Assembly: GCA_001899145.1 (NCBI GenBank)
Contig: MKVF01000027.1
Span: forward strand, 1 to 64,000
Reading direction: 5' to 3'
Length of the DNA stretch: 64,000 nucleotides
DNA from: Flavobacteriia bacterium 40-80
Lineage (GTDB): Bacteria > Bacteroidota > Bacteroidia > Flavobacteriales_D > Crocinitomicaceae
The notes under the pieces were generated by a model. It was given only the letters and a program-made list of their open reading frames with translations, searched no databases and was not told the DNA's origin. Positions 38,059 through 58,493 of this stretch are shown in pieces (position 1 is the stretch's first letter; each line of letters starts with the position of its first letter). A program made the position numbers and the translations under genes.

Positions 38059-39324
38059 TTAATCCTGAATTCCTTTGGAAAGCTCTTTATCCTTACCGAA
38101 TTTCCAGATAACAGCGTCCAGGTAATAGTGATGTAAGATCAGGGCGACAAAAAAGACTGCTATCGTATTTTTCAGCGAGAAATATTCTTCCGGTAAAATA
38201 TAAACGGTTCCGATTCTTCCCAGCTCAAAAACAACAGAAAAAATAATACCTGTGATAAAAAGCATAATTACCCGTTCGCTCCATCTCTTGGCTATTCCGT
38301 GATTTTTTTGAGAAGAGGTGTATTGCTTCTTACTGAAAAACGGCACAAATGCGAGGTATTGAATATTGTGAGGTAAAGTGATCGCAACAACCATAATACT
38401 TTTGTCTCCTTCCACCGGATACAGAAGAATCCCGAAATACAAAATCAGTGTAGTTGCAAAAACAGCCCATTTAGGGAAATTAAAGGACTTTTCTTTTAGC
38501 TGGCAACGAACAGACTGAATGAGGGAAATAGTGAAAATTGCAATTAAAAGCCCCAAAATAACGGTCAATACATCTTTTGCAGAATATTTTAAAATGGAAA
38601 GGATCAGTATTCCTGCTCCTAAGCAATAAAACGCCATATTTCTGGCAGGAAGCTTATACTGAAAGCGTTTGGAAAAAATAGTAATAAGACCGAAAAACAT
38701 CGCAAAAAACAAGCACAGGTATGCCAGCTTGTCCCAATAGTTTAAAATGTATTGTAAATCATTTGCTTCAGGGGCAAATAAATACTTTTCAGAATCAGGA
38801 AACCATAGCGGATCAATCATATTTATAAGCACTAACGGAATAAAGCTGCCACTTAAAAGAGAAAGCTGGTCCCAGTTGATCTTTGTGATTTTTTCCCCGG
38901 CGTTTCTTTTATAAATCGCCATAAAGCCCCAATTCTGCTTTACCAAATGATAGAATCCCAGAACAAGGACAAATCTTCTGAAAAAAGTAAAAAACAAAAA
39001 ACTGTCTTTCCAGAAATAATCGGAGCTGACAGCCCAGAATGCCAGCATCGGAACAATGGTTATGAATGTAAGGCTGGGGATGATCCAGGTTTTATTCTCC
39101 CGGTAATAGCTTTTATCTAAAAAGACCCGATAATAAGTTGAAAAATAGTGATTCACATCGAATAGCACAGAATATATAATGATCAGTATAAGTATAGAAG
39201 GGAAAGCGGCCAGCTTTAAAACATTAATAAGGAAAAGATAAATTCCCAGCATCAGGAAACCGGAAATAAAAGGTAAAATAATATATGCCCAATCTTTTCT
39301 TTCAGAACCAAGGATACTTTTCAT
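38059..39324 (-). CDS. Polytopic membrane protein of unknown function
   Basis: A 421-residue integral membrane protein with about 10-12 hydrophobic helices. Several short motifs lie at the edges of helices: SVLFDVNHYFSTYYRV near 50-66, LGFYHLVKQNWGFMAIYKR near 125, LPHNIQYLAFVPFF near 320, and LILHHYYLDAVIWKFGKD near the C terminus. The repeated histidines and aromatic residues could bind a cofactor or metal, but no catalytic family is recognisable. It has its own intergenic regions on both sides and precedes (divergently) the HTH duplication. Confidence 0.8.
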   Translation of the reverse strand: MKSILGSERKDWAYIILPFISGFLMLGIYLFLINVLKLAAFPSILILIIIYSVLFDVNHYFSTYYRVFLDKSYYRENKTWIIPSLTFITIVPMLAFWAVSSDYFWKDSFLFFTFFRRFVLVLGFYHLVKQNWGFMAIYKRNAGEKITKINWDQLSLLSGSFIPLVLINMIDPLWFPDSEKYLFAPEANDLQYILNYWDKLAYLCLFFAMFFGLITIFSKRFQYKLPARNMAFYCLGAGILILSILKYSAKDVLTVILGLLIAIFTISLIQSVRCQLKEKSFNFPKWAVFATTLILYFGILLYPVEGDKSIMVVAITLPHNIQYLAFVPFFSKKQYTSSQKNHGIAKRWSERVIMLFITGIIFSVVFELGRIGTVYILPEEYFSLKNTIAVFFVALILHHYYLDAVIWKFGKDKELSKGIQD

Positions 39325-39592
39325 CTGCTTTCTTTTTATCTAATTCTAAAAATAGAATAACACAATAATAGATTTATTCCGGAAGCTTTATTCATAATAC
39401 TTCCTACGCCACGCAAGTTAACAAAACTTTTCTGAGTAAAAACTTTAGTATTTCAAATACTTTTTCCTGAATTAAAACGACCTGTCTTTTGTTGCAAAAA
39501 TGAATTTATGCTCACAATCGTACAAAATATGCTCTTATATGAAACTTTAATGTAAATAATTTTTCTCCGTTCGCTACTCAACTTTGTAAATA

Positions 39593-39925
39593 ATGATACA
39601 TAGAGGAGAAATAGTTGAACAGGCAGTGAGAAAAAGCGGAGTTCCCATTGCCACTATCGCAAAGCGCCTTGGGAAAAGCCGCCGCTGGATGTATTTGATG
39701 TTTGACAACCCGGACGTTCCGATTGAAATGATTGCCCGAATAGGACAGATCATTTATTACGATTTCCATGAGGACCTTCCGGCCTTATTCCCTAAAGGTC
39801 AGATTTTCTCGGAATCAGCCTTTACCTACAAAACTTCTGAAAGCTCCGAATACTGGAAAAACAAATACTTTTCTCTGCTGGAAGAACACAACGCTTTATT
39901 GAAAAAACTGGCGAAACAGATTTAA
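39593..39925 (+). CDS. Small HTH-like DNA-binding protein, copy 1
   Basis: A 110-residue protein. Residues about 5-50 form a likely helix-turn-helix (EIVEQAVRKSGVPIATIAKRLGKSRRWMYLMFDNPD, with GVPIATIAKRLGKS as first-turn part), then FHEDLPALFP and a short C-terminal amphipathic helix EYWKNKYFSLLEEHNALLKKL, probably for dimerisation. The product resembles an XRE/Cro-type regulator but lacks a full family signature. It has two close relatives, at 40229-40558 and 57769-58098. Its upstream element CAACTTTG ends 6 nt before the ATG. Confidence 0.82.
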   Translation: MIHRGEIVEQAVRKSGVPIATIAKRLGKSRRWMYLMFDNPDVPIEMIARIGQIIYYDFHEDLPALFPKGQIFSESAFTYKTSESSEYWKNKYFSLLEEHNALLKKLAKQI

Positions 39926-40228
39926 AATATTTCCTCATCAGCACCAACTATTGATGCGTGATATTATTTAGTATCTGCTTTTGTAAATATTAAAAAAGAA
40001 ATAAGCTTCTTAAATAACCTGTAGTGGTTTTTCAGGCAGACAAGGAGGGAAATAAATAATACTTCTGATATAACCTGAAAAAAGACACCTTGTTGCATGG
40101 CAAACAAGAAAATAACTCTTCTTTATTATCGCAGCGATGAATTTTACTCACAACCGTACAAAATATGCTCTTATGTGGGTTTTTAACGTAAATAATTTTT
40201 CTCTACTTCTTACTCAACTTTGTAAATT
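39926..40228. other. Spacer between the HTH copies
   Basis: No gene was found. The right part (from about 40138) is the duplicated upstream region of copy 2. The left part (39926-40137) has no copy-1 equivalent that I recognised and no clear signal. Confidence 0.6.
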
Positions 40229-40558
40229 ATGACACATAGAGGAGAAATAGTTGAACAGGCGGTGAGAAAAAGCGGGGTTCCCATTGCTACGATCGCGAAG
40301 CGCCTTGGAAAAAGTCGCCGCTGGATGTATCTGATGTTTGATAATCCTGATGTTCCGATCGAAATGATTGCCCGCATAGGACAGATCATTTATTATGATT
40401 TTCATGAGGATCTTCCGGCTCTATTTCCCAAAGGCAATACTTCAGACTCTCCCATCATTTACAAACCTTCTGAAAGTGCGGAATACTGGAAAAACAAATA
40501 CCTTTCCCTGTTGGAAGAGCACAACGCGCTATTGAAAAAGCTTACCTCCGGAACCTGA
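40229..40558 (+). CDS. Small HTH-like DNA-binding protein, copy 2
   Basis: A 109-residue paralogue of the gene at 39593; residues 1-67 differ by a single residue (T2 versus I2) and the tail after FPKG diverges. The C-terminal helix EYWKNKYLSLLEEHNALLKKL is kept. The DNA-binding residues GKSRRWMYLMFDNPDV are unchanged, so both copies should bind the same site. Spacing to copy 1 and the copied upstream elements indicate tandem duplication. Confidence 0.82.
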   Translation: MTHRGEIVEQAVRKSGVPIATIAKRLGKSRRWMYLMFDNPDVPIEMIARIGQIIYYDFHEDLPALFPKGNTSDSPIIYKPSESAEYWKNKYLSLLEEHNALLKKLTSGT

Positions 40559-40631: not shown

Positions 40632-41006
40632 ATGGATTACGCTGTTGATTTAAAATTCCAGAATCTGGTCAGACATCTTGAAAAAGAATTCGGGCCCGGG
40701 CTGGATACACATACTATTCTTTTTATCATCGGAGTTCAGGAACTGGGCCTCGGGTATAAAAAATTCAAAAAGAACGAAAAGACCGATCTGATGCATGTTG
40801 CTTTGTGCACGGTCCTGGAGCCTTACGGCTATTACAAATATATCGGTAATGACAAAGATAACTGGCCGCACTTTGAGCTGGTAAAAGAACTTCCTCATTT
40901 AGGACAAAAAGAACAGCAGTTTCTTATGAAAGAAGCGATCTTGGATTACTTTGTCAAAAACGGCTATGTGGAAGAGGACAACGTTAAATCTTCAGAAATT
41001 ATCTAA
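40632..41006 (+). CDS. Conserved-looking cytoplasmic protein of unknown function (124 aa)
   Basis: A 124-residue protein, no signal or membrane segment. It begins MDYAVDLKFQNLVRHLEKEFG, has an LFIIGVQELGLGYKKFKK helix, MHVALCTVLEPYGYYKY and ends with KEAILDYFVKNGYVEED. It reads like a compact helical protein of Bacteroidota and is directly upstream of rseP. I cannot name a family or function. Confidence 0.75.
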   Translation: MDYAVDLKFQNLVRHLEKEFGPGLDTHTILFIIGVQELGLGYKKFKKNEKTDLMHVALCTVLEPYGYYKYIGNDKDNWPHFELVKELPHLGQKEQQFLMKEAILDYFVKNGYVEEDNVKSSEII

Positions 41007-56882: not shown

Positions 56883-57590
56883 TCAGTCCTCTTTTAGAAT
56901 ATATCCCATCCCAACAACGGTGTGAATCAGCTTTTTGCCCGGATTCAGATCTATTTTTTTACGAAGATAATTTACATACACATCTACGACATTTGTCCCA
57001 AGATTAAAATTGATATCCCATACTTTTTCCAGTAAATCGGTACGTGAAAGCACAATGTTCTTATGCTGTAAAAAGCAGTATAATAATTTATATTCTGTTG
57101 TTGTTAAATTTATTTTTTCACCGGAACGGGTTACTTCCTTCTTGTCATCATCCATAATTATGTCGGAGAAGGTCAGTAAATTCCCATTGTTCTTTTTTTC
57201 TTCGGAAACACCGGGAGAAAAATACGTATTTGCTCTTCGCAGCAACGTTTCAATCCGGGCAGTCAGCTCTATGAATTTAAATGGTTTTACCAGGTAATCA
57301 TCAGCTCCGTATTTAAGTCCCATAACCACATTTTCTGTTGTTCCTAATGCGGTAAGGAATAAAATCGGAATTTGTGTATTTTCATTACGGATCAGCTTAC
57401 AAAGCTCAGTACCGCTCATTCCCGGTAACATAATATCTAAAATGATCAGATCAAAAGCGTAATTTTTGAAAAGCTCGTACCCCATGTTTCCATCCATCGC
57501 TACAGAAACATCGTATCCTTCCTCCGTCAGGCCTTTACGGATAAACGAAACAACATGATTTTCATCTTCAACCAGCAGAATCTTTTTCAT
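56883..57590 (-). CDS. OmpR/PhoB-family response regulator
   Basis: A 235-residue regulator. The receiver domain has LVEDE near residue 6, phospho-acceptor D52 (in LIILDIMLPGMSG) and the lysine in DDYLVKPFKFIEL. The C-terminal winged-helix (about 135-235) has LTTTEYKLLYCFLQHKNIVLSRTDLLEKVWDI and VVDVYVNYLRKKIDL. It is the first gene of the kinase/Usp/lipocalin/DUF1275 run on the minus strand, so these may be its regulon, although the HK-Usp gap is 133 bp. Confidence 0.95.
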   Translation of the reverse strand: MKKILLVEDENHVVSFIRKGLTEEGYDVSVAMDGNMGYELFKNYAFDLIILDIMLPGMSGTELCKLIRNENTQIPILFLTALGTTENVVMGLKYGADDYLVKPFKFIELTARIETLLRRANTYFSPGVSEEKKNNGNLLTFSDIIMDDDKKEVTRSGEKINLTTTEYKLLYCFLQHKNIVLSRTDLLEKVWDINFNLGTNVVDVYVNYLRKKIDLNPGKKLIHTVVGMGYILKED

Positions 57591-57768
57591 AGCCTGAAAT
57601 TACAAACTAATTTGACGGATCAGAACTTATATTGCAAATTTTAATCATTTTCTAATGTGCATTGAAAAAACGACCGTTTTCTCTGGTGCCATTGTCATTT
57701 TACCGGATCTTTAGTTATGATTTCCTTCTTCTAAGGAAGGAAAAAGGTTATTCTTGTAAATGATCTTC

Positions 57769-58098
57769 CTACTTTTCTGTGGTGAATTTCTTCAGTAGTG
57801 AATTATACTCTTCCAGCAACGCGAAATACTTGTTTTTCCAGTATTCTTCCCCTTCATGCTTTAAATCATAGGAAACTTGCTCAACTGCCTGAAACTTTTG
57901 AAAGAGAGACGGGAAATCCGAATGAAAATCGTAATAGATGATCTGACCGATCCGGGTGATGATTTCAATCGGAACATCCGGGTTGTCAAACATCAAATAC
58001 ATCCAACGGCGACTTCTCCCAAGCCGTTTTGCGATTGTAGTAATGGGAACTCCACTTCTTCTGACCGCCTGCTCAACTATTTCACCTCTATGTACCAT
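57769..58098 (-). CDS. Small HTH-like DNA-binding protein, copy 3
   Basis: A 109-residue third paralogue of the genes at 39593 and 40229. From ATG 58098 it reads MVHRGEIVEQAVRRSGVPIT and keeps the core TIAKRLGRSRRWMYLMFDNPDVPIE, with ITRIGQIIYYDFHSDFPSLFQ and the C-terminal EYWKNKYFALLEEYNSLLKKF. It differs from the tandem pair at many positions, so it is an older copy. CAACTTTG ends 5 nt before the ATG, as in the other copies. It is on the opposite strand, about 17.5 kb away, next to two sensory systems. Confidence 0.82.
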   Translation of the reverse strand: MVHRGEIVEQAVRRSGVPITTIAKRLGRSRRWMYLMFDNPDVPIEIITRIGQIIYYDFHSDFPSLFQKFQAVEQVSYDLKHEGEEYWKNKYFALLEEYNSLLKKFTTEK

Positions 58099-58493
58099 CC
58101 TTCGCAAAGTTGTTTAATTATTCGGGAATATTTTTTCACCATTAATCCACAAAAACGGGAAAAAATATACATTTATGAGCATTACGATACCCGATTTTAT
58201 CGCAATACTGATTACACAGCTGAACAATGGCTTCACCGGCTTATACTATCAACGTTTTTCGCTCGGTTTATTATCCGGGCAGAAAAGGAGTGAAAGGAGT
58301 CTTTTTCTTATAATAATTACAGTAATTTTTCCTGGCAGAAAAAATAAAATTGATTATCAGCAGCGTACCTGTGAATTTCAAATTACGACTTATTCTGCCT
58401 ATCCATCTTTTAGGCGTATGCCTTGTGGAAGATTAACAAAATAATAGGTTGTTTTTTGGTAATATTGGCATCTAAAATCAATTTTACCTGACC
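58099..58493. other. Intergenic region between HTH copy 3 and the LytS-like gene
   Basis: Besides the promoter-like CAACTTTG (58111-58104, minus strand), these 395 bases hold no supported gene. TAATATTG at 58460-58467 could be a degenerate -7 element for the LytS-like gene. Long open frames here overlap HTH copy 3 or lack family content. Confidence 0.6.

Follow-up and report, generated by a model that had tools for sequence, protein, structure and literature searches.

The window, by which we mean the whole stretch of 64,000 nucleotides that was analyzed, contains three copies of a small gene predicted to encode an XRE-type regulator. Two of them, A and B, follow each other on the plus strand with their starts 636 bp apart, and the third, C, lies unlinked on the minus strand (Table 1). 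The start of C is set at the ATG at 58098; the TTG start at 58107 given by the ORF finder falls within the -7 box of the gene. A search of the genome for more copies, as the first-pass annotation had proposed, returns A, B, and C as the only significant matches at the protein level (3.52 Mb, 32 contigs, 99.7% complete), the fourth match having an E-value of 0.3.

Table 1. Genes, putative operators, half-sites, and -7 boxes of the three regulator copies, in window coordinates.
Feature	Position	Strand	Remarks
Putative operator/promoter of A	39530..39586	+	32.9 bits, E 2.3e-7 (whole genome)
A half-sites, TnCnC	39530-39534, 39563-39567; last, in TnCnC orientation, 39575-39579	+	
A half-sites, GnGnA type	39541-39545 (1 of 3 key bases), 39552-39556 (2 of 3)	+	
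A -7 box, CAACTTTG	39579-39586	+	6 nt before ATG
Gene A, XRE-type regulator (predicted)	39593..39925	+	110 codons, 110 aa; HTH about residues 1-66, variable linker, C-terminal helix 85-109
Putative operator/promoter of B	40166..40222	+	30.5 bits, E 1.3e-6 (whole genome)
B half-sites	40166-40170, 40177-40181 (2 of 3), 40188-40192 (2 of 3), 40199-40203, 40211-40215	+	
B -7 box	40215-40222	+	6 nt before ATG
Gene B, tandem paralogue	40229..40558	+	109 codons, 109 aa
Gene C, unlinked paralogue	57769..58098	-	109 aa; about 17 kb from A/B
Putative operator/promoter of C	58105..58161	-	33.3 bits, E 1.8e-7 (whole genome)
C half-sites, 3 of 3 key bases	58161-58157, 58150-58146, 58139-58135, 58128-58124	-	
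C last half-site	58116-58112 (2 of 3)	-	
C -7 box	58112-58105	-	6 nt before ATG

The first 67 codons of A and B differ at 22 of 201 bases, corresponding to 21 silent codons and one amino-acid change, at residue 2 (I/T), which bears out the earlier statement that a single residue differs in this part. Residues 3 to 69 are identical, and the linker after residue 69 has diverged. Since the silent sites are far diverged (dS 0.80, as against a dN of 0.006 and thus a dN/dS of about 0.008), the pair is old and not an assembly artefact, the explanation that the first-pass annotation had named as one that would undo the finding; 22 differences in 201 bases rule it out. The substitution pattern is that of a pair duplicated long ago and held by strong purifying selection in its DNA-binding part. 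Gene C, described earlier as a third and more diverged copy, is real, with 76% DNA identity to the query and, relative to A, a dN of 0.084 and a dS of 0.99 over the first 67 codons.

The upstream regions had also been noted as copied at the 636-bp offset, and this is what we find, over a short distance. Compared in 20-base steps, the upstream DNA of A and B has 4-9 identical bases upstream of 39500, except for 12 at 39300. The count is again 12 at 39500 and stays at 14-19 between 39520 and the start codon, so that the likeness is restricted to the final 75-85 bases or so ahead of the start. Two exact copies of the 19-mer GTACAAAATATGCTCTTAT are present in the window, where no other site comes within 3 mismatches (none of 100 shuffles had two occurrences), and genome-wide there are two exact occurrences and one site with 3 mismatches. 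As the upstream DNA has stayed alike where silent sites have drifted, the noncoding stretch itself would be constrained. It corresponds to a conserved putative operator that is common to relatives, with half-sites at 11-bp steps ending on the -7 box.

The proteins A, B, and C match no Pfam or NCBIfam model at its cut-off. The best Pfam match for A is HTH_23, with 16.2 bits against a cut-off of 24.6; among 42 family members, HTH_23 is found in 37 and HTH_3 in 8 at E<=0.1. The invariant residues of the 42-member alignment are H3, G5, S15, G16, S29, R30, W32, Y34, F58, W88, and Y92. For A, the AlphaFold model (mean pLDDT 83.5, pTM 0.53) has four HTH helices at residues 4-15, 19-26, 30-38, and 44-54, with a mean pLDDT per ten residues of 91-94 over residues 11-60, followed by a poorly predicted linker and one helix at 85-109. 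In the structure comparison, which spans 64-75 residues and whose Z values taken alone are middling, the model aligns with ImmR (Z 8.9), C.Esp1396I (8.4), PrgX (8.4), DdrO (8.1), lambda cI (8.0), and SinR (7.9). The structure matches listed are mostly XRE domains and include C.BclI and C.AhdI; C.Csp231I is not among the 50 listed, which says nothing against kinship. Foldseek gives probabilities of about 0.9-1.0 for the SinR, HipB, and lambda entries, with poor E-values (best 0.057), and the search of solved structures for sequence relatives gives none that is convincing (best E 0.11). The proteins are thus predicted to have an XRE (lambda-repressor-like) fold with an added C-terminal helix. 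We found no published description of this Flavobacteriales regulator family in the literature on Fluviicola, Crocinitomicaceae, and XRE autoregulation in Bacteroidetes.

In a sample of 200 genomes of the family-level group, 77 have a match at E<=1e-5 and 123 have none. The 104 strongest of the 113 listed places, here called the strong set, fall in 73 of these genomes, 47 with one copy, 21 with two, and five with three. Copies less than 2 kb apart, always on the same strand, are found in 20 genomes of the genera g1 (the organism's own), g11, g15, and g19; in six more genomes the copies are unlinked or far apart, further pairs occur in genus g19, and genome G048 has a triple. The tandem duplication proposed in the first-pass annotation is correct, but it is old, and tandem copies occur in four of the 24 sampled genera. 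In an order-level sample, 121 of 399 genomes match the family profile, many of them weakly. Of 186 loci, 80 were retained, and the named relatives among these include Taishania pollutisoli, Fluviicola, and several species of Flavobacterium, besides many MAGs. One sequence, CP034120.1, is labelled Glaciecola amylolytica (Alteromonadaceae) and appears to belong with the Fluviicola genomes (g11); the label looks wrong.

In the tree, which is built on few columns and leaves 25 of 112 inner branches open, A, B, and C join the copies of Taishania and UBA5422 (100/98), and within g11 the pair members split into a group of five genomes (98/71) and one of six (100/97). Among 19 adjacent pairs compared, the A/B pair has a dS of 0.68 in the first 64 codons; the other 18 have a dS of at least 1.1 or one that is not computable (taken as saturated), with dN values of 0.04-0.40. 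Because the adjacent pairs show high dS and group in the tree, tandem pairs have probably formed more than once and then been kept, and gene conversion may also have acted in them, in g19 above all. That A and B are adjacent and sisters in the tree (98/70) would fit an explanation in which their promoters and N-termini are alike merely through recent duplication or gene conversion. A dS of 0.80 with a dN of 0.006 speaks against a recent duplication, however, and other genera as well as Flavobacterium carry this operator too, so we regard this explanation as highly improbable.

The layout of the putative operator is obtained from 65 of 79 nonredundant upstreams, namely those with TTTG near the start, which were aligned without gaps on this motif; the 14 that lack TTTG there were left out. 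The information in this alignment peaks at 11-bp steps. Counted from the G of TTTG, the half-sites are h1 (TnCnC, -57), h2 (GnGnA, -46), h3 (GnGnA, -35), and h4 (TnCnC, -24), and at least two of the three key bases are present in 49, 43, 48, and 61 of the 65 upstreams, respectively, compared to 6-7 on average and at most 13-15 in 300 shuffles, the pattern having been read off the same 65 upstreams on which it was counted. The half-sites h1 and h2 form an inward pair, TnCnC-N6-GnGnA, centered at -49.5, and h3 and h4 an outward pair, GnGnA-N6-TnCnC, centered at -27.5. The last half-site, h5, is mixed, with GnGnA at -13 in 20 of 65 upstreams, TnCnC at -12 in 34, both forms in 4, and neither in 15; in either form, h5 extends into the -7 box or as far as its edge. 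The TnCnC form is the one present in A, B, and C (3, 3, and 2 of the 3 key bases, respectively).

With matrices from which the lineage in question was left out, all 13 operators of the Flavobacterium clade exceed every shuffle, as do all three of the organism's own and Taishania type (A, C, and UBA5422), the B and Taishania operators having already been removed as redundant. Covariation between the arms is weak: it is suggestive for h1/h2 (best p 0.004) and for h4/h5, and none of the five pairs tested for h3/h4 is significant. The GC autocorrelation of the operators is 0.22 at lag 11, 0.24 at lag 9, and 0.31 at lag 33, with no sharp peak at 11.

In Flavobacterium psychrophilum, the sigma-A -7 box TAnnTTTG occupies -12 to -5, and leaders have a median length of 24, with 5.5% of transcripts leaderless (PMC9723704). 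The gap between TTTG and the start codon is 4, 5, 6, 7, and 8 nt in 22, 19, 17, 6, and 1 of the 65 upstreams, respectively, the anchoring having admitted short gaps only. Applying the F. psychrophilum box rule to these gaps of 4-8 nt, we infer a leader of 0-4 nt, i.e., a near-leaderless mRNA. The first base of the -7 box is T in 2 of the 65 family promoters, as compared to 113 of the 179 xAnnTTTG boxes that precede other ORFs (p 2e-19, kinship ignored), which suggests that at the -7 box the operator has been favored over the consensus promoter. The missing -33 element was considered as a sign of activator dependence and rejected as not distinctive (TTG at -33 in 1 of 65 versus 10 of 118, p 0.10).

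To describe where the operator occurs, we use a model, R1, of 40 operators built on sequence only: 39 of the 65 anchored ones plus that of B, with low scorers and part of the rest left out. In the organism's own genome, R1 has three strong matches, the promoters of C, A, and B (33.3, 32.9, and 30.5 bits), these three operators being among its 40 training sequences, and the next-best match has 14.4 bits (E 0.16). In the 200 genomes, R1 gives 39 places at E<=1e-5; 38 of them immediately precede a family gene of the same orientation, and the remaining one precedes a decayed family gene. There are 50 places at E<=1e-4, of which 48 are before family genes, the other two being the decayed one in genome G124 and an unexplained one in G004; at E<=1e-3, 55 of 63 places are at family genes. 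The 123 genomes without a family match have a strong operator in one case at E<=1e-5 (the decayed gene) and in two at E<=1e-4, and they contain 22 operator places at E<=0.01. In 1.26 Mb of locus DNA, which includes overlapping loci so that the counts contain repeats, a matrix scan gives 133 matches above 14 bits, 125 before family genes and 8 not; the two best of these 8 are the opposite strand of family operators, and the reversed-sequence control gives 1 match.

Three of these places deserve separate mention. In G124 (C125:1870-1928), the operator is followed by a decayed regulator gene, a control site that has outlived its gene. In G004 (C1:1126611-1126670), a one-contig genome without a family match, a 26-bit match is followed, after 123 bp, by an ORF of at least 192 aa with no assigned function. 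In G161 (C181:3031-3080), a weaker match (E 7e-4) lies 115 nt before a 90-aa XRE-like ORF and may be a second target.

At lower scores the situation is different. At E<=0.01, R1 gives 100 places, 61 at a family gene on the same strand, 2 on the opposite strand, and 37 not at a family gene, compared to about 2 expected from the rough E-values; therefore, either the E-values overstate significance or there are genuine weak sites elsewhere. At the same threshold R1 recovers the promoters of 60 of the 104 strong family genes, i.e., it is specific at high score and insensitive. A few of the 44 missed genes sit at contig ends without upstream DNA, and the operators of some family members score very low (down to -18.8 bits, with tandem copies at 2.7 and 7.0).

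Most XRE regulators have targets, and the proteins could be regulators of the usual kind that control a larger set of genes, with the full array as their autoregulatory site and other targets carrying fewer or weaker half-sites that the model overlooks. As R1 misses 44 of 104 family genes, weaker target sites would be missed too, and the 37 of 100 places away from family genes, together with the XRE-like ORF in G161 among the 12 operator places inspected, point in the same direction. On the other hand, there is no significant nonfamily site in the organism's own genome, and of the 133 matches above 14 bits only 8 are not before family genes, the two best of them belonging to family operators on the other strand. 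We consider a wider regulon a serious possibility that falls somewhat short of an even chance.

The neighborhood comparison in relatives that had been proposed earlier shows that the flanking genes change between genera and that the operator stays with the gene. Apart from the regulator, every gene cluster is limited to at most 11 of the 41 stretches that were compared, and a conserved partner gene was rejected, since the neighbors differ between genera and the ten downstream genes scanned in relatives are of mixed kinds. A shared operator alone does not name its reader, and an unrelated regulator might bind it, with the HTH genes as its targets. Against this, an operator at E<=1e-5 is present in just one of the 123 genomes that lack a family match, where a decayed family gene follows it, and operator and gene stay paired across changing neighborhoods; we consider an unrelated reader unlikely. 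Because operator and gene stay together and a strong operator is rare without the gene, the family protein itself would be the simplest reader.

A few neighbors were noted along the way. A gene for an NAD-dependent epimerase is found upstream of the regulator in Taishania-type genomes, and in certain other genomes and MAGs it follows the regulator by 15-36 bp in the same orientation (assigned by Pfam for L066 and L122); the loci with this gene beside the regulator are L036/L037, L066, L122, L136, L143, and L151. In the window, C lies 178 bp before a same-strand OmpR-type response regulator and histidine kinase (56883-58098, minus strand), where read-through is possible, and B is followed by a gene of 124 aa (40632-41006) with no Pfam match at cut-off (weakly LisH-like) and a -7-like box of its own before the start.

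The fold shared with C-proteins, the operator array upstream of the gene itself, and the patchy distribution (73 of 200 genomes in the strong set) would be compatible with an orphan C-protein, antitoxin, or phage-repressor remnant of a mobile element. Protein A, however, has no tblastn match at E<=0.01 in 50,697 phage and 72,556 plasmid records, and the family alignment gives two weak matches among viral contigs, so that a phage, plasmid, or viral origin was rejected. None of the 15 other proteins scanned in the window belongs to a restriction-modification family. A codirectional nonfamily ORF lies within 150 bp of 16 of the 113 family genes (crude ORF calls), and the 11 of these 16 close downstream genes that were scanned, on the downstream side only, contain no restriction-modification family, one of them being DUF1016_N. 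The long purifying selection and the retention across species also argue against a remnant, which we consider quite unlikely.

The closest parallel is with the controller proteins of the C.Csp231I and C.EcoO109I class, described as small XRE-type proteins in which extra C-terminal helices hold the dimer (PMC3115060). In two further reports, C.Csp231I uses two palindromes first to activate and later to repress the promoter of its own gene, apparently with a leaderless mRNA (PMC4824078), and its two 15-bp sites are separated by 18 bp, i.e., their centers are 33 bp apart, the sequence of the spacer being unimportant (PMC4321490). A, B, and C resemble this class in being small, predicted XRE-type proteins with a C-terminal helix, a putative operator ahead of each gene, and a predicted near-leaderless mRNA. 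Where h5 is GnGnA, as in 20 of 65 family members, the outer palindromes are likewise 33 bp between centers. There are also differences. The last half-site of A, B, and C faces the other way, and because h5 has the TnCnC orientation there, the C-protein-like second palindrome is absent from them; a first palindrome and an inverted second pair are present in the operator, with weak arm covariation. Furthermore, the family half-site is TnCnC, whereas that of the C-protein is CTAAG, and a conserved half-site lies within what would be the spacer. One C-terminal helix is predicted rather than two, tandem paralogues exist, and, unlike for the controllers of restriction-modification systems, no restriction-modification genes were seen beside the family genes scanned.

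Compared to other XRE regulators, such as lambda CI, SinR, ImmR, and HipB, the family has the same predicted HTH fold, but A, B, and C match no curated Pfam HTH model at cut-off. The protein is too short for a peptidase or ligand domain, and strong operator matches are almost confined to the family's own promoters. By analogy, the family would thus consist of autoregulated XRE controllers that work somewhat like C-proteins and, by the neighborhood test, are not C-proteins.

On this basis we consider it likely that A, B, and C are self- and cross-regulating XRE-type controllers, C-protein-like but without a restriction system, and that they probably control mainly themselves and one another. 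In the proposed mechanism, each protein controls its own gene. Dimers, probably held by the C-terminal helix, would bind the half-site array, in which the 11-bp spacing, about one helical turn, would place the half-sites on about one face of the DNA. Since the half-sites run into the -7 box, repression is predicted: protein on the last half-sites should block RNA polymerase, giving negative autoregulation; as with C-proteins, the distant pair might serve for activation when the protein is at low concentration. The roles of the family proteins as operator binders and the sign of the regulation are inferred from the sequence patterns above.

Paralogous autorepressors that carry the same operator are expected to share one feedback loop. 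Because the operator is shared and the recognition helix (residues 30-38) is identical, A, B, and C would each be expected to bind all three promoters, forming one cross-regulated loop that holds total protein steady. The earlier suggestion of a family regulated by one another gains in this way from the shared operator, the three promoters as the strong whole-genome matches, and the same DNA-binding domain, and may be kept as an interpretation; the suggestion of dosage control would be compatible with autoregulation. The annotation had also offered stable orthologues with separate functions as an outcome that would count against its reading, and this does not hold as stated, the copies kept in relatives having the control site in common. 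Relative to cross-regulating autorepressors in general, the particular feature here is the tandem copies in four genera of one bacterial family.

A more far-reaching reading, which we put forward only tentatively and consider rather doubtful, is that the family forms a closed loop: chromosomal C-protein-like switches with no restriction system or other strong target, whose main DNA targets would be their own promoters and those of their copies, and whose tandem pairs arose repeatedly and were long kept. If true, the protein would act as a self-timed switch, or as a DNA-binding protein that can be titrated and is kept at a set level, rather than as a classical regulator of other genes. The near confinement of the full operator to the family's own copies raises the question of what output such a loop has. 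The long-kept natural pairs with known operators would also make the evolution of cross-regulating paralogues testable in bacteria that can be cultured, namely Fluviicola, Taishania, and Flavobacterium.
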